Made by a program: the position numbers and the translations under genes
Shown: positions 1 through 20,506 of the stretch, piece by piece
Position numbering within the stretch: position 1 is the stretch's first letter
Layout of the letters: each line of letters starts with the position of its first letter
IMG/VR virus record: IMGVR_UViG_3300046170_000168
Coordinates: 1-36,459 of that record
Direction: 5' to 3' (one strand)
From: a virus
DNA: 36,459 nt
The notes under the pieces: model-generated
Seen by the model: the letters and a program-made list of their open reading frames with translations, nothing else
Database searches by the model: none
Told to the model about the DNA's origin: nothing

Positions 1-69
1 GTCATATTCTTCTTCACATAATCTACAGTCTAAAATATCCGACATTCCCTCAATTAATTCCCATACCAT
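1..69 (-). CDS. partial small protein with CxxC, cut by window edge
   Basis: Starts at the ATG whose first base is 69, overlapping the TAA of the upstream gene (TAATG), and stays open to position 1. The 23 visible residues include a C-x2-C pair (DCRLCEEE). If the window is circular, the frame continues through 36459 for eight codons and stops at 36433, giving a 31-aa protein that overlaps the start of the 36452 gene by 20 bp. Function is unknown. Tight coupling to its neighbours supports a real gene. Confidence 0.6.
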   Translation of the reverse strand, partial: MVWELIEGMSDILDCRLCEEEYD

Positions 70-212
70 TATTCTTCCAACACTCCCATCAATCTTGCTA
101 ATGCTAACTCGTCATCAACATCAACTTTATTTTTCTTTACTCTTGTCATCTCGTTGCTTATCCACCACGAGATACCTGCTATAACTAAGATAGCAAACCA
201 ACCTATGTGCAT
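69..212 (-). CDS. 47-aa membrane-anchored small protein
   Basis: An ORF of 47 codons starting MHIGWFAILVIAGISWW. Residues 3-18 form one hydrophobic helix, followed by a charged cytoplasmic-type tail rich in Lys and Asp/Glu. Start and stop are both fused to neighbours by TAATG overlaps (at 212 and 69), typical of a translationally coupled phage operon. The family is not recognised. It may be a small early membrane protein, but nothing in the sequence fixes a function. Confidence 0.65.
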   Translation of the reverse strand: MHIGWFAILVIAGISWWISNEMTRVKKNKVDVDDELALARLMGVLEE

Positions 213-340
213 TACTTTCTCCCTCTTACATTACTAGAATATAATCCGTGACTGCTCTCTGAATTTACGAGAACACCATTGATTACTCTTAATGTATTTT
301 TCTTTTTAGACTTACTAGCTCTACGCTGTTGTCTATTCAT
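212..340 (-). CDS. 42-aa basic small protein
   Basis: A 42-aa ORF beginning MNRQQRRASKSKKKNTLRV, very rich in Arg and Lys. A good ribosome-binding site (AGGGAG, about 7 nt upstream) precedes the ATG at 340, and its TAA overlaps the next ATG. It is the first gene downstream of the structured non-coding region 386-1054. Function is unknown; the charge suggests nucleic-acid contact. Confidence 0.6.
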   Translation of the reverse strand: MNRQQRRASKSKKKNTLRVINGVLVNSESSHGLYSSNVRGRK

Positions 341-385
341 ATTTACTCCCTTGTTTATTGTAATATGTACTTTACTACATATTCA

Positions 386-1054
386 CAGAGAACACAAGTC
401 AAAGGGGCACTCCTGTTCTCTGAAAATAAATAGCTTGTAACACACAATACACACACACTCTTAAAGAGTTACTATACCTATCCCACGTGCTAGTAAGCTA
501 TTGCCTATCCTCTTATGTGTTACAAGCTACCTATTGACTTGGGTGTACTCTTTACAGAGGCAAGGTTCAGTAAGTCAAAATTTCCCCTTGCTCACCTCAT
601 AGATAGCAATACTTACTTTCAGCACCTAGTCTGGAATTACATTGTTTATCTAGGTTTGTCCTTAGTTCAAGCTAAGGTTTCCACTTTTAGCATTGTAAGT
701 ATTGTAAAGTTATCGTGCTGCAATAGGTGGTTCGTTAATCCTTTTCCTACTACAACCCATAGATGAGATGACCACAGATGTTTTACCTAGACTTTGTCTT
801 TTCGGCAAACTCGTAGTTTCACATTGACGAAATGTACCTCACTAGCTCCCTATCGTAGTTTTTCCTGCTTGCGACAGCTACGCCTCATTAGTTAGATTGC
901 AGTCCAACTTTATTATTTCAGAGTTTCTTGCCTATTCTAGCTCTCATTATTACTTGTAATTGTTTATCCTATCGGGCAACTACAAGCTATGGTGATAACT
1001 TTACGATACCTACCATTGACTACACCTTACGATGTAGTCTATGCTAAGTATTAT
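386..1054 (-). ncRNA. candidate large structured RNA (about 670 nt)
   Basis: A gene-free stretch inside the leftward operon with dense nested inverted repeats. Hairpin 386-394/414-422 has 9 bp. Stem 431-444/516-529 has 14 bp. Stem 607-616/695-704 (10 bp, perfect) encloses two hairpins, 624-629/650-655 and 660-665/672-677, making a multibranch junction. Further stems are 854-858/878-882, 953-962/977-986 and 1018-1024/1033-1039. Wobble pairs do not settle the strand: the 953 stem has G.U on minus, while the stem in 793-810 has U.G on plus. Minus is given because of the operon direction. I cannot assign it to a named class such as GOLLD or ROOL from memory. The 83-aa plus frame inside it looks spurious. 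Confidence 0.45.
431..529 (-). repeat. long hairpin element, copy A
   Basis: A perfect 14-bp inverted repeat, TAGCTTGTAACACA at 431-444 and its complement at 516-529, around a 71-nt interior. Both arms and a few flanking bases recur in copy B at 1433-1507, but the interiors differ. Read on the minus strand the element opens GGTAGCTTGTAACACATA and closes GTGTTACAAGCTATTTAT. It is the downstream end of the structured region. Confidence 0.7.
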
Positions 1055-1404
1055 CTTTGATATTTTGGTTTTATTCTGTAACTGTAATGGAGTAATGTAC
1101 TGTGACTAGGTCTTACAACTCTATATTTCCAAGTTATAATATCCGAATGATTGTCTATTTCATAGAGTTTTTCTTTAACTCTATTTACTGAATCATTATA
1201 AGTACCTTTAGTCCATCGCAACGCATACACTATAAAAGGCATACGTTGTTCTTTTGGTACATTATTTTTAGCATAATCCCACAACGATTTTATACCGTAG
1301 TGACCACCTTTGTACAAAGAATACTCTCCGTTTTTGTTACGGTTTTCTTCTATGTATTGTTGGTCGTGGTATTTACTCCAATAAAATTCACTTCCTTTAT
1401 TCAT
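1051..1404 (-). CDS. 117-aa hypothetical early protein
   Basis: Opens MNKGSEFYWSKYHDQQYIEE and is preceded by the AAAGGGGTAAGT ribosome-binding site shared by other genes of this operon. The protein is rich in Tyr, Lys and Asn, with no Cys motif and no membrane segment. The C-terminal half contains a basic, aromatic run (about 80-117). It lies between hairpin element B (upstream) and the large structured region (downstream). I do not recognise the family. Confidence 0.7.
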   Translation of the reverse strand: MNKGSEFYWSKYHDQQYIEENRNKNGEYSLYKGGHYGIKSLWDYAKNNVPKEQRMPFIVYALRWTKGTYNDSVNRVKEKLYEIDNHSDIITWKYRVVRPSHSTLLHYSYRIKPKYQR

Positions 1405-1432
1405 ACTTACCCCTTTCTATCTGCTATATAAA

Positions 1433-1520
1433 TAGCTTGTAACACACAGCCCTCTTTGTACATTGGTTTAGTTATAACGAGTGCTTTTAACTATGTGCTA
1501 CAAGCTACCTACGGTAGCTT
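1433..1520 (-). repeat. long hairpin element, copy B, with a competing hairpin
   Basis: Arms at 1433-1446 and 1494-1507 form a 14-bp stem. The single non-Watson-Crick position is G.U on the minus strand but A-C on plus, which favours a leftward RNA. The 5' arm also belongs to a second hairpin, AAGCTACC (1502-1509) with GGTAGCTT (1513-1520), 8 bp with a 3-nt loop. The two stems share bases and cannot form together, as in an attenuator. It lies in the gap between the genes ending at 1524 and starting at 1404. Confidence 0.65.
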
Positions 1521-1523
1521 ATG

Positions 1524-1679
1524 TTAAACATATATAGTGTGAGGTCTTTCGACATCGTATATAGTACAAGGTCTACGTTTGTCTGCAAACCTCTCTGCTT
1601 GTTCTAATGTTTTAATATCGCTTGCTTTACGACCTGCATTAGTTTGATATACAACTATATATTTATATGGATTACTCAT
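1524..1679 (-). CDS. 51-aa hypothetical protein
   Basis: I take the start at 1679 (MSNPYKYIVVYQTNAGRKAS) rather than the longer open frame, because this ATG overlaps the stop of the preceding gene by 8 bp. The sequence looks like a small alpha/beta domain: a strand (YIVVYQ), a helix (KTLEQAERFADKR) and a last strand (CTIYDVE). Function is unknown. Confidence 0.65.
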   Translation of the reverse strand: MSNPYKYIVVYQTNAGRKASDIKTLEQAERFADKRRPCTIYDVERPHTIYV

Positions 1680-1857
1680 CGGATTCAACTTCCACAGATT
1701 CTGTTTTATCCCACTCGTGATTAATAACATTTTCAGTATCAAACTCAACTGTGTCAAACTCGGCGAGTCCTAGTTCCTCTGCTTTGTCCTTACTTTCAGC
1801 TTTTACAATATAGCTAGTATGACTGAAGATATGAACCCAATATTCTTTTTCTTCCAT
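1672..1857 (-). CDS. 61-aa acidic small protein
   Basis: Opens MEEKEYWVHIFSHTSYIVKA. It has a strand-strand-helix pattern (residues 5-32, including ESKDKAEELGLAEF) and a strongly acidic C-terminus, resembling the small soluble early proteins common in marine phages. The ribosome-binding site is AAAAGGGGTAAACA. It is translationally coupled to the 51-aa gene downstream. No function is assignable. Confidence 0.65.
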   Translation of the reverse strand: MEEKEYWVHIFSHTSYIVKAESKDKAEELGLAEFDTVEFDTENVINHEWDKTESVEVESDE

Positions 1858-1923
1858 TGTTTACCCCTTTTCTGATACTATAAGTATCTATCTAGCCACG
1901 TTTAATAATGGCTAGTTAGATAA

Positions 1924-2217
1924 TTACTCGTTACCTTTATACCAAAACTCTACTTTACCGTCTTTAATGGAGTTCATTAAACTTTGTACAGTAATGTATG
2001 CGTCTTTAGTTTTGTTCATATAGATAGGAAAATCCTCTCTAGGTAACTCACTAGATATTATGTTAGGATTCTTAGACGGTGTTTTATATATTTTATCCAG
2101 TCTTGTTTCAAAGACTGCACCGTTACCGTTTGGAGATACAAGAACTCCAAGACCTAACAAGTTTTCAGGTTGTATTAAATCACTATCTACGAATTTAATT
2201 TTTAACCAAGTTTTCAC
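1924..2217 (-). CDS. 97-aa hypothetical protein (GTG start)
   Basis: Start is GTG at 2217, directly after an AAAAGGGGTAATA ribosome-binding site like those of neighbouring genes; no ATG fits that site. It opens MKTWLKIKFVDSDL and ends in a short helix-strand (VQSLMNSIKDGKVEFWYKG). There are no Cys pairs and no transmembrane helix. It sits between the downstream arm of the 20-bp inverted repeat and the 61-aa gene. The family is not recognised. Confidence 0.65.
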   Translation of the reverse strand: MKTWLKIKFVDSDLIQPENLLGLGVLVSPNGNGAVFETRLDKIYKTPSKNPNIISSELPREDFPIYMNKTKDAYITVQSLMNSIKDGKVEFWYKGNE

Positions 2218-2278
2218 TATTACCCCTTTTCTATTTTATTAGAGAGTTGATACCCTCTTAAAACAGGACTGACCTGCT

Positions 2279-2596
2279 TTAGAACTCTGATATTATTATT
2301 CCCTCAGTACCTTCAATCTCTATAACGATTGTGTGGCTTTGTAGGTCTTCTAGTGTCTTGATGTCATCGTTTCCAACTTCCTGTAAACATTCATCAAGAT
2401 TTTCGTATTCTGTAAACTGTACACATAGAGCTATTACGTCTAACTCATATGGTTCAGTTCGGTCTAGTATCCCTGTATATATTTCATTAATATATTCATA
2501 AAGAGCATTGAGTCCTGCATAGGTAAAATCTTTGTGTCTTCCCATACTTGCGAACTCACTTCTAAAATCATAAGCATTAATTGTTTTTATTATCAT
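2279..2596 (-). CDS. 105-aa conserved phage protein, function unknown
   Basis: First gene of the leftward operon, with the ribosome-binding site AAAGGGGAAACA. The sequence (MIIKTINAYDFRSEFASMGR..., then ELDVIALCVQFTEYENLDEC, then TLEDLQSHTIVIEIEG) matches my recollection of a small protein common in phages and plasmids. It is usually annotated hypothetical and has a central LDVIALCV.FTEYE motif. Probably a soluble alpha/beta early protein. A role against host defence is conceivable for a first-expressed gene but is not shown here. It is enclosed by the 20-bp inverted repeat. Confidence 0.75.
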   Translation of the reverse strand: MIIKTINAYDFRSEFASMGRHKDFTYAGLNALYEYINEIYTGILDRTEPYELDVIALCVQFTEYENLDECLQEVGNDDIKTLEDLQSHTIVIEIEGTEGIIISEF

Positions 2597-2616
2597 TGTT
2601 TCCCCTTTTTTTTTAT

Positions 2617-2645
2617 AGATTACTTTATATATTTGACTTTGTCAA
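2617..2645 (-). promoter_or_regulatory. candidate leftward early promoter
   Basis: On the minus strand a perfect TTGACA (2645-2640) is followed after 17 nt by TAATCT (2622-2617), which matches TATAAT at only three of six positions. It is correctly placed to transcribe the gene starting at 2596. The -35 box lies in a small dyad (TTGAC ttt GTCAA). Weak -10, so moderate confidence. Confidence 0.4.
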
Positions 2646-2689
2646 GTTCATTTTGCGTACCTATCCTGTTTTAAGGGGGTATCGTTTTG

Positions 2690-3060
2690 GAAAGTTAGGT
2701 CGGGTAAGTTATCACTCTATCCGTCTCTTATCGCTTGTTACAGCCCCCGAGATGCTTTACAGTTCCTCTATTAGCAGGTTATCTTTGTGCCTCGCCTTTG
2801 TCTAGCCTCGCACTGCTCCCGTCTTGTCCGTGTCCGAGTTGTCGGTTTCTTGTGACGTTCTCAAGATTATTTGGGTTCAATCTGTTTTTACCTTACCTAC
2901 GGTCTTGTAGGTTCTTGATTAACCACCTAATCTGCGTTTATCTTCTCAAGGTTTGCCTAACTATTCATTTGTCCTGTTTACTTGGAGTTTTCTCTCCTGT
3001 TTATCTTTTGAAGTTATCAGGTAAAACTTTTGCGTTTACCGTGTTTAACTTATATAAATA
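2690..3060. ncRNA. GC-rich hairpin-dense region, candidate structured RNA
   Basis: Counted by hand, 2701-2880 is about 48% G+C, in a clearly AT-rich genome. The plus strand is pyrimidine-rich and carries only low-complexity open frames. Local stems include 2834-2837/2842-2845, 2861-2866/2913-2918 enclosing 2895-2900/2907-2912, 2773-2777/2813-2817, 2984-2987/2994-2997 and 3020-3025/3035-3040. High GC, strand bias and stacked hairpins without a gene suggest a structured RNA or leader. The strand is undecided. It lies just upstream of the leftward operon. Confidence 0.4.
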
Positions 3061-3082
3061 TTATGGCACATATTGGATTATA

Positions 3083-3451
3083 TGTAAAATTTACATTACA
3101 AATAATTATACATTTTAAACCTTGTAGAATTAGGAAATATACATAAAATCCTAATGATTACGGTTAGTGAAATGTATATTATTCATAGCATATACTATAT
3201 ATGGTATGTTTACCTGTATGAATGTATAATTATTCATTAAATGTGCTGGGGGGTGCTTGTCAATTTAACCTAAAAGGGGTATAGAACCACTGCATCTTGT
3301 ACCACAACATATAGTATATGTTTCATACCTACACACAATATGTTGTACCTACTATATATGGTATAGAACATATGTTCGATAGCCACCATATGTCAATATG
3401 CGTGGGGTACTCTCTATATTGTTAGACATTAATTTATAGGTCGAACATATT
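3083..3451. promoter_or_regulatory. AT-rich palindrome cluster: operator or origin region
   Basis: A gene-free control region full of dyads: TGTAAAATTTACA (3083-3095), a 14-bp inverted repeat (3101-3114 with 3221-3234), AACATAT agt ATATGTT (3306-3322), GAACATATGTTC (3366-3377) and a half site near 3442. The heptamer AACATAT or its complement occurs about six times in 150 bp. ACTATATATGGTAT occurs twice. ACAACATATAGT (3304-3315) recurs in the capsid promoter at 18838-18849. This is the layout of a multi-site operator or iteron origin; which one cannot be decided here. Confidence 0.5.
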
Positions 3452-3478
3452 GTTAAAGCTAGTAAAGGCAGTAAAAGA

Positions 3479-3517
3479 GATTAATCAATTTGTTATACAA
3501 TTGGTTAATCATTTTTG
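3479..3517. terminator. bidirectional terminator-like hairpin
   Basis: A 12-bp stem (3479-3490 with 3499-3510, one U.G on plus) with an 8-nt loop, followed on plus by ATTTTTG and on minus by TCTTTTA. The stop codon of the minus-strand gene at 3505 lies in the stem, so it would end that transcript. The stem is AT-rich, so its strength is uncertain. Confidence 0.5.
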
Positions 3518-3621
3518 TAAACTATTTTAGTTGATTGTGTACACACAGTCGGTGATGAATCACAATAGTATTTATTGTTATTAGCTTGCTTGAGTGGTTT
3601 ATGACACTCTGTACATTTCAT
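3505..3621 (-). CDS. 38-aa zinc-finger micro-protein
   Basis: Opens MKCTECHKPLKQANNNKYYC and has Cys at 3, 6, 20 and 27, a compact C-x2-C...C...C arrangement likely to bind one zinc. It ends inside a terminator-like hairpin. It stands alone in the control region, so it could be a small DNA- or RNA-binding regulator; that is inference from context. No clear ribosome-binding site precedes it. Nothing else is recognised in 3622-3815 apart from weak dyads. Confidence 0.55.
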   Translation of the reverse strand: MKCTECHKPLKQANNNKYYCDSSPTVCTQSTKIVYKND

Positions 3622-3815
3622 AATGTTAGTTTACTGTATGTGGTGGGTTTTGGGTATAACGGGCTATTTGTGTGGGGTAGGCTTAAAACTTTCTCTTAAG
3701 TTGTCCTTGAGTACCAGGTTTGTGTTACTACTGTATCGTATTACCGATTCCTGGCTTTCTGACTCCCGATGCCACCTTCACTTGTAACAACTGTTTCAAA
3801 AAGTTTATTTATCAC

Positions 3816-3844
3816 TTTGCATAGTACTACCAGTTTTATATAAT
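3816..3844 (+). promoter_or_regulatory. sigma70-type promoter for the small RNA
   Basis: TTTGCA (3816-3821), a 17-nt spacer and a perfect TATAAT (3839-3844). Transcription would begin near 3851, just before two successive hairpins. Confidence 0.6.
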
Positions 3845-3850
3845 GCAAGT

Positions 3851-4024
3851 ACCTGGAAACACCAGGTAATCATATGAGGATATGATTCAATTTATGAAAG
3901 AAAGAAAGCTTAACATCTTTAATAATGGTGGGATGGAAAGGTTTGTGAATTTCATATTTTTCATTACAGTAAATGGACAGACTGTACGTGTACAAAGCCC
4001 TGTAGCAATACGGGGTTTTGTTTA
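3851..4024 (+). ncRNA. candidate phage small RNA, about 170 nt
   Basis: It has its own promoter (3816-3844) and an intrinsic terminator (3994-4024). The predicted transcript opens with a hairpin ACCTGG aaaca CCAGGT (3851-3869), then a 7-8 bp hairpin ATCATAT gagg ATATGAT (3870-3887) whose loop presents a GAGG, which could pair with a pyrimidine-rich target or act as a Shine-Dalgarno sequence. A new promoter starts at the base after the terminator, so the unit is self-contained. It may also encode a 44-aa peptide (3894-4028), although that frame runs through the terminator. Confidence 0.55.
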
Positions 4025-4028
4025 TTGA
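3894..4028 (+). CDS. possible 44-aa peptide overlapping the small RNA
   Basis: ATG at 3894, 13 nt after GAGGA that lies in a hairpin loop. It encodes MKERKLNIFNNGGMERFVNF and a hydrophobic C-terminal half. The last ten codons overlap a terminator hairpin, and the stop overlaps the TTGACA of the next promoter. This makes a real protein less likely than an RNA-only product. Confidence 0.25.
   Translation: MKERKLNIFNNGGMERFVNFIFFITVNGQTVRVQSPVAIRGFVY
3994..4024 (+). terminator. intrinsic terminator of the small RNA
   Basis: A 9-bp stem, AAAGCCCTG (3994-4002) with CGGGGTTTT (4011-4019), two of the pairs being wobble pairs valid only on plus. It has an 8-nt loop and a U-rich tail TTTTGTTTATT. 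Confidence 0.65.
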
Positions 4029-4052
4029 CAAACTTGTAGTATCTAGTATTAT
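4025..4052 (+). promoter_or_regulatory. strong sigma70-type promoter of the rightward operon
   Basis: Perfect TTGACA (4025-4030), a 16-nt spacer, then TATTAT (4047-4052). It follows directly after the small-RNA terminator. The leader to the first gene (4146) contains two hairpins: ATTCC ttca GGAAT and, with 7 bp, ACCCTAG cctgt CTAGGGT. It is the best candidate for driving the terminase and virion genes with host RNA polymerase, since no phage polymerase is encoded. Confidence 0.7.
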
Positions 4053-4145
4053 GAATAGGTCTAACAAAAATATTCCTTCAGGAATTATTCATTGGACTCC
4101 CTGTTTATCAACCCTAGCCTGTCTAGGGTATGGTATAGTAAATTT

Positions 4146-4259
4146 ATGAAAGAAGATATACCAGTAGTAGATTGTGACCAGTGTTGGAATCCTTATTGGG
4201 AGGACCAGCTTATTGATGGGTTATGTCCTACTTGCTCTGTAGATATAGTTATAGAATAA
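4146..4259 (+). CDS. 37-aa zinc-ribbon micro-protein
   Basis: Encodes MKEDIPVVDCDQCWNPYWED and then CPTC near the C-terminus: two C-x2-C knuckles (Cys 10, 13, 27, 30), the minimal zinc-ribbon spacing. It is the first gene downstream of the strong promoter at 4025. No clear ribosome-binding site is visible. Function is unknown; likely a small nucleic-acid or protein adaptor. Confidence 0.55.
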   Translation: MKEDIPVVDCDQCWNPYWEDQLIDGLCPTCSVDIVIE

Positions 4260-4270
4260 AAAAATTTTTT

Positions 4271-4477
4271 TTACCCCAATGGTTGTTGTAAATCAGTAGG
4301 TGCCTGGCGACCTTTTATTCTTGGATATGTTTTAGGTTTGTGTTTGTTGCAATACTTAAACTTATTGTATTTAGAAATAATTGTGTTGCATTCTTTGTGA
4401 ACGCAGACTCTTCCACTACTATATGAAGTAGAGGGTTTATGATTAGGATATTGCTTTCCTTTGATATAATCACTCAT
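4271..4477 (-). CDS. 68-aa Cys/His-rich phage protein
   Basis: The frame is open further upstream, but the start at 4477 (MSDYIKGKQYPNHKPSTSYS) avoids a hydrophobic, gene-overlapping extension. The core GRVCVHKECNTIISKYNKFK then YCNKHKP gives a C-x4-C...C-x2-H zinc-binding pattern. This resembles, from memory, a small protein common in actinobacterial phages (GR.C...GC.T.LS.YN...C..H). It lies opposite to the flanking rightward genes, so it needs its own promoter; a TATACT-like box lies upstream on minus. Confidence 0.55.
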   Translation of the reverse strand: MSDYIKGKQYPNHKPSTSYSSGRVCVHKECNTIISKYNKFKYCNKHKPKTYPRIKGRQAPTDLQQPLG

Positions 4478-4501
4478 ACAAGATATAGTATAGGAGATAT
4501 A

Positions 4502-4567
4502 ATGCCTGGTAAAGGATATAAGCCAAAAAAGGCTATGAAAAAAAATAAAGTTAAGAAGAGGAAGTAA
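4502..4567 (+). CDS. 21-aa Lys-rich micro-protein
   Basis: MPGKGYKPKKAMKKNKVKKR plus a final Lys, with a good TAGGAG ribosome-binding site 5 nt before the ATG. Its TAA overlaps the ATG of the next gene (TAATG). Very short basic MPGK proteins precede packaging genes in many marine phages. A DNA-condensing or head role is possible but unproven. Confidence 0.55.
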   Translation: MPGKGYKPKKAMKKNKVKKRK

Positions 4568-4824
4568 TGGCTGAATGGCGAGGTATGAAGGTGAAGTTAA
4601 ACTCACCAAGCCCTATACGAAAGGGTGAGCCTGGCTATGGTCGTAAGAAATCTAAAGTCTTTGTAATGAAAAATGGGAAAGTCAAGAAAATAATGTTTGG
4701 CGACCCTAATATGAAGATTAGGAAAAACAATCCTGCAGCTCGTGCTTCGTTTCGTGCTAGACACAAATGCAGCACAGCTAAGGATAAAACGACTGCACGA
4801 TATTGGTCGTGTAGAGCTTGGTAA
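4567..4824 (+). CDS. 85-aa conserved basic marine-phage protein
   Basis: A basic protein ending in the conserved block RASFRARHKCSTAKDKTTAR followed by YWSCRAW. I recognise this signature (FRARH.C...KDK.T.RYWSC..W) from many marine phages, where it is annotated hypothetical and found near terminase or structural genes. Two Cys and one His may bind zinc. It is coupled to the 21-aa gene before it. The actual role is unknown. Confidence 0.7.
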   Translation: MAEWRGMKVKLNSPSPIRKGEPGYGRKKSKVFVMKNGKVKKIMFGDPNMKIRKNNPAARASFRARHKCSTAKDKTTARYWSCRAW

Positions 4825-4833
4825 GGAGAAACA

Positions 4834-4971
4834 ATGGCTAAAAAAGGTTTGTATCATAATATTAATAAAAGAAAAAAAGCTGGTACAAGTAGGTCTAAAA
4901 AAAATTCTACAATTAGTCCAAAAGCTTATAAAAATATGAAAGCTGGATTTCCTAAAAAGAAAAAGAAATAA
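4834..4971 (+). CDS. 45-aa Lys-rich micro-protein (MAKKGLY family)
   Basis: Opens MAKKGLYHNINKRKKAGTSR and ends in a poly-Lys tail. The start follows AAGGAG by 6 nt and the stop overlaps the TerL start (TAATG at 4969). MA(K/T)KGLY proteins with a GFPKKKK-type end are widespread next to packaging genes in marine phages. Strongly basic, so DNA contact is plausible. It is the third of three basic micro-proteins immediately before terL. Confidence 0.65.
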   Translation: MAKKGLYHNINKRKKAGTSRSKKNSTISPKAYKNMKAGFPKKKKK

Positions 4972-6873
4972 TGCAGAGAGCTAAGTGTGCTCTTAATTCA
5001 TACAAAGGTGAAGAGTGCAGGAGACAAGCAACTAAGAATGGTAAGTACTGCAGTCCTAAATGCAGAAGAAGAGTTGCATATCTAAAAGACTTAGGTAAGA
5101 AAACTAATAAGTCCGTACAAAAAGTAAAGCCCACTTCTACATTACGTGGAGAGTTATATCCTAAGTTTGTAGAGCTGTATGCTAATCAAATAGAAAGACA
5201 AAAGATAACACATCAAGAAACTGCTGACTTACTAGAAACAAGTAGAGCTACAGTTACAAAAATGTATGCAGCTTATTTAGAAGACAAAGAAAACTTTGAA
5301 GCTAGAAAAGATTGGCAGGTTTCAGAAGAGACAGTTAAATCCTTAGAAGATTTTAAAGATTTTAGAAATAGATATTTTAAAACAGAGACAGGTGACTTAT
5401 ACGAGACAGCAGACTTTCACGAAGGTTGGATAAACTCTATTATGGATGCGATTGCTAATGGTGGACAGCAGATGATACTTAGCCCACCACGACACGGTAA
5501 GACTGACTTACTTACACACTTTGCTGTATGGCAGATATGTAAAAACCCTAACATAAGAATTATGTGGGTTGGTGGTAATGAAGATATAGCTAAGAATGCT
5601 GTAGGTTCTGTACTTGACCAGTTAGAAAATAATGAGTTGTTAATAGAAGAGATATGTGGACCAGGAGTAAAGTTTCAACCAAAAAATAGAAGTGGTAAGT
5701 CTTGGAGTTCTGGACAGTTTACTGTAGGTACAAGAACTATTACAGGTATTAAGAGTCCTACTATGGTTGCTGTAGGTAAAGGTGGTAAGATACTTTCTCG
5801 TGACTGTGACTTGATTATTGCTGATGACATTGAAGGACCACGGAACTACAGTACAACCTAGTGCTAGAGAGCAGACCAGGCAATGGTGGACTACAACATT
5901 ATCTTCCAGGAAAGAGGAACATACTGCTGTAGTTGTTATTGGGTCTAGACAACACCCTGAAGATTTATATAACTTTTTATTAGAGAATCCACAGTTTGAA
6001 ACAAAGGTAGAAGAGGCACATAGTTTAGAGTGTGTACTACCAGAAACAGAGTTTGAAGTACATCAAGACTGTATGCTGTGGGCAAGTAAACGAACTTACA
6101 AATGGTTAATGGGTCAGAAAGATAATGCTGACACAACTGGAGGTAGAGCAATCTTTGAAATGGTATATCTTAACAAAGCATTTGTTGAAGGTATTACAAT
6201 GTTTAATTCAGAGGATATAGACCAGTGTAGAGATATTAATAGAGTTATTGGGCAGGTACCTGCAGGTACTCATTTAGTTGCAGGACTTGACCCAGCATCT
6301 ACAGGATTTCAGGCTTGTTTCTTATGGGCTGCAAATCCAGAAACAGGAATGATGTATCTTGTAGATATAGAGAATGAACAAGGTGGAGGTGTTATACAAG
6401 CTCGTAAGTCTATAAAAAAATGGCACGAGAAGTATGGACTTGCACACTGGGTCATAGAAGAGAATGGTTTTCAGAAAGCAATTAGACAAGATACAGAATT
6501 AAAAGATTACTGTGGCAGGATGGGTATACATCTAGAAGGACATCAGACACAGAAAAACAAATATGACCCAATTTATGGTGTTGGAAGTATGCAACAATTG
6601 TTTGAACAAAATCTAATAAATCTCCCTTATGGTGATACAGAAAGCGAAACAAAGAGTAATATATATCGTAGGCAACTAATTTATTTTTCAAGTGCTGCTA
6701 GTAAAGCTAGTAAAGCAAGAAGTTATAAATCAGATGTCGTAATGGCTAGTTGGTTTCCAATGAAAGTTATAAGAAGACTTGGAAAAGAACGATTAGCTGA
6801 AGTAGGATTAGATTATGAACCTAGTTTTGGAGAATGGGATATTACAGATATGAACGAAAGCCCTTGGGGATAG
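4971..6873 (+). CDS. terL: terminase large subunit with N-terminal Zn and HTH domains, frameshifted
   Basis: ATP-driven DNA-packaging motor. The N-terminus carries a Cys cluster (C6, C16, C27, C31), then a helix-turn-helix-like segment (about 79-100, ITHQETADLLETSRATVTKM) typical of small terminase subunits. The ATPase follows: Walker A SPPRHGKT (171-178) and Walker B LIIADDIE (281-288). The frame then ends at a TAG (5859-5861), and the rest lies in the +1 frame. Skipping one G at 5835 joins IADDIE to DHGTTVQPSAREQ, restoring the usual D-D-x-x-E-D-H. The C-terminal nuclease is seen as HLVAGLDPAST (Asp near 440), VIEENGF and KSDVVMASW. The joined product is 633 aa. No separate small subunit gene is seen. 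Confidence 0.9.
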
Positions 6874-19567: not shown

Positions 19568-20506
19568 ATGGGTGCAATTACAGGTCAAGGACAATCCTAT
19601 AACCTACCTAATTACGTTGGAGAACTATTTAATGTTTCCCCAACAGATACTCCATTATTGAGTGCTATTGGTGGTATGACTGGTGGAAAATCAGTCACAT
19701 CAAAACAGTTTACTTGGCAAACAACAGACCTCGCAGGTGCTACACAAACAGCAGCTGTTGAAGGTGCTGACCCAACTATGAAGGGTAGAACAAGAAGCGA
19801 AGTAATCAATGTTACTCAAATAATGCAGTATGGTGTTGAAGTATCATACACCAAACAAGCAGCAGTTGGAAACCTTTCAGGTCAATCCATTATTGGAAAT
19901 CAACCAGTTCAAGACGAATTGGCTTTCCAATTAGATATGGCTATGAAAACAGCTGCACGAGATATAGAACATTCCTTTATTCAAGGAACCTATGTCGCAG
20001 ACACAGACATATCAACAGCTAGAAAAACTAGAGGTATGCTTGAAGCTATTTCTACTAACGAAGTAGCAGGTGGAGCAGCAGCTCTTACCCAAGATATGGT
20101 TGATGAAGCTATGAAAAAAATGGCAGATTCTGGTGCACCATTTGAAACACCAGTTATCTTTGCTAACGCTTTCCAAAAACAAGCGTTATCAGCATTATTT
20201 TCTAACTCATTAGCTCTAGCTCCTAGAGATAGAAATGTCGGTGGTGTTAACATCACAACTATTGAAACTGACTTCGGTCAACTCGGTATTGTGTATGAAC
20301 GACACATTCCAACAGATGACATTCTCATTGCAGACTTGTCATTCTTGAAGCCAGTTTTCTTGGATATTCCAGGAAAAGGACACTTCTTCGTAGAGCCATT
20401 GGCTCAAACTGGTGCTGCTTATAAGTACCAAGTGTATGGAGAAATTGGATTAGAATATGGTCCAGAACAGTTCCACGCAAAAATAACAAACCTAGCTACC
20501 TCCTAA
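19568..20506 (+). CDS. major capsid protein, SU10/DUF5309-like
   Basis: 312 aa. The N-terminal segment NYVGELFNVSPTDTPLLSAI and the motif FTWQTTDLAGATQTAAVEGA match the SU10-type major capsid family (HK97 fold). Later blocks are VEVSYTKQAAVGNLSGQ, a helical spine with AARDIEHSFIQG, and a C-terminal beta region (GKGHFFVEPLAQTGAAYKYQ). The ribosome-binding site is strong. Has its own promoter and leader with the scaffold and is followed by a stable hairpin, so its mRNA is probably made and stabilised separately. Confidence 0.88.
   Translation: MGAITGQGQSYNLPNYVGELFNVSPTDTPLLSAIGGMTGGKSVTSKQFTWQTTDLAGATQTAAVEGADPTMKGRTRSEVINVTQIMQYGVEVSYTKQAAVGNLSGQSIIGNQPVQDELAFQLDMAMKTAARDIEHSFIQGTYVADTDISTARKTRGMLEAISTNEVAGGAAALTQDMVDEAMKKMADSGAPFETPVIFANAFQKQALSALFSNSLALAPRDRNVGGVNITTIETDFGQLGIVYERHIPTDDILIADLSFLKPVFLDIPGKGHFFVEPLAQTGAAYKYQVYGEIGLEYGPEQFHAKITNLATS

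Follow-up and report, generated by a model that had tools for sequence, protein, structure and literature searches.

Positions 695-1053 of the virus record analysed here encode, on the minus strand, a structured noncoding RNA of about 350 nt that is under selection, and in the records examined this RNA is strictly accompanied by a single protein family, whose gene lies on either side of it and in one case is unlinked. We consider it reasonably probable that the two belong to an unrecognised phage ribonucleoprotein (an RNA of 350-550 nt and a protein of 84-118 aa, co-inherited across very different uncultured phages and lying among mosaic RNA modules), and that the hairpins beside it belong to a widespread family, constant in the arms and exchangeable in the loop. 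What would be new is each of the two families, RNA and protein, and the fact that they are paired; that phages carry large structured RNAs is already known. Among the genes of the window, by which we mean the whole stretch of 36,459 bases, are those for a terminase and a major head protein as well as an exonuclease and a single-strand annealing protein (SSAP).

A structured RNA in the leftward operon

The interval 386-1054 lies inside a leftward operon made up of small genes, with the minus strand as the operon sense. The original prediction described the whole interval as one large multibranched RNA without a credible gene. With regard to genes this was borne out, as the sole open reading frame of at least 60 aa found when both strands were scanned is the antisense frame at 515-766. 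The proposed comparison with shuffled sequence also came out in its favour on both strands: on the minus strand the real sequence folds far better than dinucleotide shuffles (-194.7 against -161.5 +/- 7.2, z -4.6), and on the plus strand z is -3.5. The observation is therefore real, but its boundaries were wrong. A large multibranched RNA does lie in the leftward operon, but it does not extend over 386-1054 as a single molecule, and two separate things are found inside this interval: the conserved RNA at 695-1053, and a set of separate modules at 386-694, namely a linker (536-694), a hairpin (425-535) and a small hairpin (386-422).

To find homologues, IMG/VR contigs, all of them metagenomic, were searched with the proteins encoded nearby, with DNA patterns and with profiles. 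The core RNA was found in 17 contigs including the window, corresponding to 15 distinct sequences. Against dinucleotide shuffles, the core (695-1045) folds with z -5.0 on the minus strand and z -4.2 on the plus strand. Our structure model consists of 14 helices with 99 pairs. Along the minus strand it begins with a 5' hairpin (1014-1043, loop GUAA), whose 12 pairs are all kept in the 15 sequences, 2 of them with double changes. The 19-bp closing helix, which is helix 2 of the alignment, has its 5' arm at 994-1013 and its 3' arm at 695-714, where the core ends. Next come the variable hairpin arm (952-987, helix 4), whose sequence and length vary freely while the pairing is kept, a multibranched centre that includes a hairpin with an asymmetric GAAAAA bulge (854-883), and the 3' hairpin (717-756, helices 13-14), in which 5 pairs show double changes. 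The bulge motif is also visible in distant relatives (8.3 bits in L139), and these relatives have the CUACGAGUU-CCGAAA segment at 798-816 in common with the core; a reciprocal model search found it in the window at 776-839 with 14.2 bits.

The compensatory changes in homologues that the original prediction called for are present. In the 15-sequence alignment 98.2% of the cells are paired, and 20 of the 99 pairs are altered on both sides, which none of 500 shuffles equalled. For example, CUG/CAG is replaced by CAG/CUG and UAGU/ACUA by UAAC/GUUA, and L238-L240 form the 3' hairpin from an entirely different sequence. When the partners were slid by 1-3 columns, pairing fell to 29-40%, a control which leans toward the structure because the structure was derived from the same alignment. 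Every frame is interrupted in the 15 homologous cores, and the alignment has several gaps whose lengths (1, 2, 5 or 8 nt) are not multiples of three. In L238-L240 the ribosome-binding site and start of the next gene lie within about 20-30 nt of the core end.

An Rfam search had also been proposed. It gave no match in the window at the gathering thresholds, no credible match in positions 1-5000 at E<=5 and no match in 16 related loci. Since the RNA is absent from Rfam and shows covariation, the suggestion of a new class holds. Isolate phages gave nothing credible for the RNA, for the protein or for the region of the hairpin, and a relative of the terminase was not found in the GTDB genomes. Two kinds of candidate were dropped. 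One was a pseudoknot between the loop CUGCAAUC and GAUUGACG, which breaks in the window, L049 and L238; the other was the reading of conserved motifs as a group I intron, a hammerhead or a tmRNA, for which model matches and key residues are absent.

The proposed partner protein and its co-occurrence with the RNA

The gene at 1051-1404 (minus strand) encodes a protein of 117 aa with no known family and lies directly upstream of the RNA, an arrangement found in all 17 contigs with the close-type RNA; the conserved RNA opens with the TAA stop codon of this gene. This gene, the likely functional partner of the RNA, falls beyond the interval that had been predicted. The family members beside the close-type RNA are 104-118 aa long, and in the 12 loci that include the sequence upstream, 6 nt separate the stop codon of the family's gene from the RNA start. 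The same adjacency, shifted by about one codon, is seen in L238-L240, and in L096 the protein gene is cut by the end of the stretch, yet it is present (L251). Common descent may account for part of the adjacency in the 17 close contigs. On the other side of the RNA the genes differ, with products of 42, 60, 45, 47, 70, 211 and 303 aa and others.

Six pairs of partner protein genes were compared for dN/dS; five gave 0.29-0.46, and the remaining pair, which is of low divergence, gave 1.19. The protein has a basic C-terminus and no significant match in Pfam, NCBIfam, PHROG or PDB, and its AlphaFold models were poor (pLDDT 57-58). A weak match to the CBASS 2TM effector Cap15, with E 3.5e-4 in PADLOC for 2 of 16 members and E 0.019 in Pfam for 2 of 12, covers 61 residues only and is probably due to chance; Cap15 is recognised by two transmembrane helices and a cyclic-nucleotide-binding barrel, and the partner protein is predicted, at low confidence, to be helical. 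When the window is compared with L003 the gene is 94% and the RNA 84% identical, and with L049 the values are 64% and 89%. Within the close lineage, recombination has probably exchanged the gene or the RNA without the other. As the protein and RNA variants are not locked together, either the protein reads a conserved part of the RNA or the two do not touch.

More distant relatives extend the comparison. The core profile finds a diverged RNA in L229 (12.7 bits, where the highest score among 500 shuffles was 0.7), and L139 and L147 form a second RNA branch, to whose profile L229 is joined at E 1.6e-4. The motifs common to the RNA relatives, in order, are GGGAAAUA, the GAAAAA bulge, GUGAG...GUGAAG and the CUACGAGUU-CCGAAA segment. 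The reciprocal model, built from the three distant RNAs, finds the correct site in the window, L049, L086, L096, L098, L100 and L101, and matches the L003 and L005 core loci more weakly. It also gave one similar-scoring match at an unrelated place in L238, and for this reason a score near 13 bits does not settle the matter by itself. Against shuffles, the fold of L229 reaches a z of only -1.8. A promoter-like sequence, TTGACT-16-TATAAT, lies upstream of the L229 RNA, and others precede the L139 and L147 RNAs; all were identified by eye and do not show that transcription takes place.

When the protein profile was run on 35 hairpin-bearing records, it matched exactly the 3 records with the distant RNAs, with E values from 1e-10 to 1e-30; one of its own members is the G061 protein, which was first found at E 2.7e-7. 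The RNA model, which was built from those three, matches the same 3 of the 35 records, and neither RNA nor protein was found in the 32 other related hairpin-bearing records. By our calculation the chance of this coincidence is 1 in 6545 if the two are independent; the distant proteins are diverged, and the distant pairs are few (n=3). In L139 and L147 the order is RNA then protein, with the protein gene just downstream, while in the lineage of the window it is protein then RNA; in G061 the RNA is about 4.2 kb from the protein gene. This co-occurrence in both gene orders and once unlinked is our main argument for a joint role of the RNA and the protein and for action of the RNA in trans. The lack of a conserved downstream target gene and the promoter-like sequences at the distant relatives were also counted in favour of our interpretation.

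The reading we favour, and think fairly likely to be right, is that 695-1053 encodes a trans-acting structured RNA which works with the basic protein of 1051-1404, most likely as an early-infection ribonucleoprotein. The small basic protein would bind the RNA, and the complex would act in trans. With moderate confidence, we suggest that it is made early in infection and targets host machinery, such as a defence, transcription or translation. When phages keep an RNA-protein pair, it usually proves to be a tool for taking over, evading or guiding host machinery. No described system in the libraries searched matched the pair, and its strict pairing offers a handle for finding the function of both the RNA and the protein.

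The position of the close-contig RNA, within a compact operon between two genes, would also suit a cis-acting element of the early mRNA (a leader, an attenuator, a put-type antiterminator or a stability element) with the protein as a mere neighbour, and in L139 and L147, where the RNA is just upstream of the protein gene, it could regulate that gene. We think this unlikely, since the downstream genes vary among contigs, the order is reversed in the close lineage, the G061 RNA is free-standing at about 4 kb from the protein gene, and RNA and protein co-occur without exception in the records examined. A self-processing ribozyme or an intron-like element would be large, highly conserved and multibranched like this RNA, but it is a very improbable explanation: no group I or group II intron or ribozyme model matched at Rfam E<=5, and the RNA begins where a complete open reading frame ends, with no interrupted gene, no constant 3' exon and variable genes downstream.

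RNA modules and exchangeable-loop hairpins

The linker (536-694, minus strand) is a mosaic of RNA modules that recur in other contigs. Its part 596-694 follows the core with 97% identity in L099 and L104, 536-607 is common to L154, L195, L096, L098 and L086, and 631-683 resembles the hairpin interior of L093, L135 and L170; within the linker, GCAAGGGGAAAUUUUGACUUACUGAACCUUGC (560-591) is one module. The small hairpin at 386-422 stands before the next gene on the same strand, is not followed by a U-run and is kept with its flank in L003, L005 and L086.

The hairpin at 425-535 (minus strand) is an intergenic RNA stem, separate from the core RNA, with conserved arms at 514-533 and 425-446 and a variable interior. 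The best reading is that hairpins of this type are a separate and new kind, with exchangeable loops. A second one, at 1427-1513 on the same strand, lies upstream of the partner protein gene, and the whole hairpin is found elsewhere with 98-99% identity in L239, L240, L164 and L168. The arms of the family, UAGGUAGCUUGUAGCACAUA and UGUGUGUUACAAGCUAUCUA, form a stem of 20-23 bp and are near-identical across more than 100 viral contigs. The exact 5' arm occurs in at least 119 viral contig stretches and has no copy in the GTDB genomes, and the arm was not found in isolate phages. Most of the hairpin contigs were picked by the exact arm sequence, so the conservation of the 5' arm (21 positions) arises partly by selection of the contigs; for the 3' arm the sole constraint was the short TACAAGCTA that delimits the copies.

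In 137 non-redundant copies the arm pairs comprise 2315 Watson-Crick, 417 G.U and 1 A.C, and the excess of G.U over A.C shows that the stem is preserved as sense-strand RNA. For 21 further stems with different distal arms, whose partners were chosen by the conserved stem base and not by the part counted, 9.6 of 10 positions are paired against 6.4 when permuted. The hairpins are co-oriented with the neighbouring genes (98 against 14 upstream, 103 against 16 downstream), and many copies precede a ribosome-binding site.

The interiors fall into 74 clusters with lengths of 22-200 nt. In 38 pairs of copies both 60-nt flanks are homologous and the interior is different; for example, L138 and L159 have identical flanks and interiors that are 18% alike. 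The reverse case, the same interior with both flanks unrelated, was found in 98 pairs. True empty sites are few, as most apparent ones hold another stem, and the clearest is L098/L099 versus L049/L054/L106. At the intergenic site 2242-2267 (minus strand) the window has no hairpin, but the homologous site is occupied by one in L098 and L099. Assembly errors were considered as the cause of the loop swaps, but some combinations recur in several metagenomes (e.g. L140/L149/L204), which argues against them.

The conserved arms may provide short stretches of homology at which phages recombine, so that the loop would be replaced as a cassette; here we point to the phage-encoded single-strand annealing protein and exonuclease. 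It is quite possible, though we would not call it probable, that the hairpins are instead RNA processing or stability sites of the RNase III type, with loop exchange as an unselected by-product of homologous recombination. A double-stranded stem of 20-23 bp, pairing at the RNA level and the frequent position just upstream of a ribosome-binding site agree with this, but the arm sequences hardly vary, a degree of conservation beyond what an RNase III stem requires, and the loops form recurrent types. Read as exchangeable-loop elements, the hairpins resemble natural cassettes through which phages trade RNA modules, and would represent a mode of RNA evolution.

Several other features were noted. 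Long noncoding stretches of about 1-1.3 kb (L195:10803-12107, L213:11954-13119 and L139:725-1756) suggest other large modular RNAs; the one in L195 has several tandem hairpins joined by the recurring linkers AAGUAAGAGCUAGUU..CCCUGUU..GACUGAAAG. The hairpin interiors of L143, L222, L126 and L150 contain the T-arm-like sequence GUAGGUUCAAAUCCUACC, and no tRNA was called in L126, L143 or L222. Within the window, the noncoding leader of the leftward operon at 2640-3050 (minus strand) is conserved at 67-81% identity in many contigs, has a fold z of -2.9 and is possibly another structured RNA. A 20-nt inverted repeat (2249-2268 and 2664-2683, 95% complementary) flanks a 105-aa gene at 2279-2596. Between the divergent operons, 3184-3460 holds repeated palindromic TATACTATATATGGTATG-like motifs and is perhaps a regulatory or origin region. 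The terminase large subunit is split over overlapping frames (4971-5861 and 5818-6873), both of which match phrog_38, and the split may be a frameshift, an error or programmed. The head protein (19568-20506) is about 50% identical to those of Propionibacterium and Mycobacterium phages, and the host may be a marine actinobacterium.

Comparison with known systems

Like GOLLD and ROOL, the RNA is a large, complex, phage- or prophage-borne noncoding RNA. The likeness to them noted in the original prediction goes no further than being a large phage RNA. The GOLLD covariance model gave no match at gathering in the window, at E<=5 in positions 1-5000 or in the 16 related loci, the same searches with the ROOL model were also without a match, and both RNAs exceed 600-800 nt, against about 350 nt here. 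GOLLD and ROOL have no known protein partner and are often near tRNA islands (PMC12286853), whereas the RNA here was always found with a small protein gene. ROOL is often near phage tRNA genes, and no tRNA was found in the window or in 29 related loci. An extremely diverged RNA-only cage component of the GOLLD/ROOL type, with which the size range, phage origin, complex fold and the presence of conserved and variable domains would agree, is hardly credible for a shorter RNA with a protein companion, no Rfam match at E<=5 and no tRNA in the window.

In tmRNA-SmpB and OLE-OapA, a structured RNA of several hundred nt is encoded with or near one small dedicated RNA-binding protein. The pair described here resembles them in that a structured RNA of similar size lies near the gene for one small protein, but it has no Rfam or protein-family similarity to them, and it is phage-encoded. 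ARAGORN called no tmRNA, which would have a tRNA-like domain and a tag reading frame, in the window and the loci scanned.

The PeSL mobile promoter/stem-loop cassettes of T4-type phages are intergenic stem-loops tied to the modular exchange of early genes. The hairpins are also intergenic stem-loops associated with modular exchange, but they are without a recognised U-run terminator or promoter, and it is their loop content that is exchanged. The ESAS of cluster K mycobacteriophages have 17-bp arms and 4-13 bp spacers and lie beside the 13-bp SAS GGGATAGGAGCCC, and their authors found little support for pairing at the RNA level (PMC3203893). The SAS GGGATAGGAGCCC was not seen in the hairpin flanks listed, and the hairpins do not qualify as ESAS. 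They differ from ESAS in having arms of 20-23 bp, pairing at the RNA level, and interiors of 22-200 nt that are exchanged.
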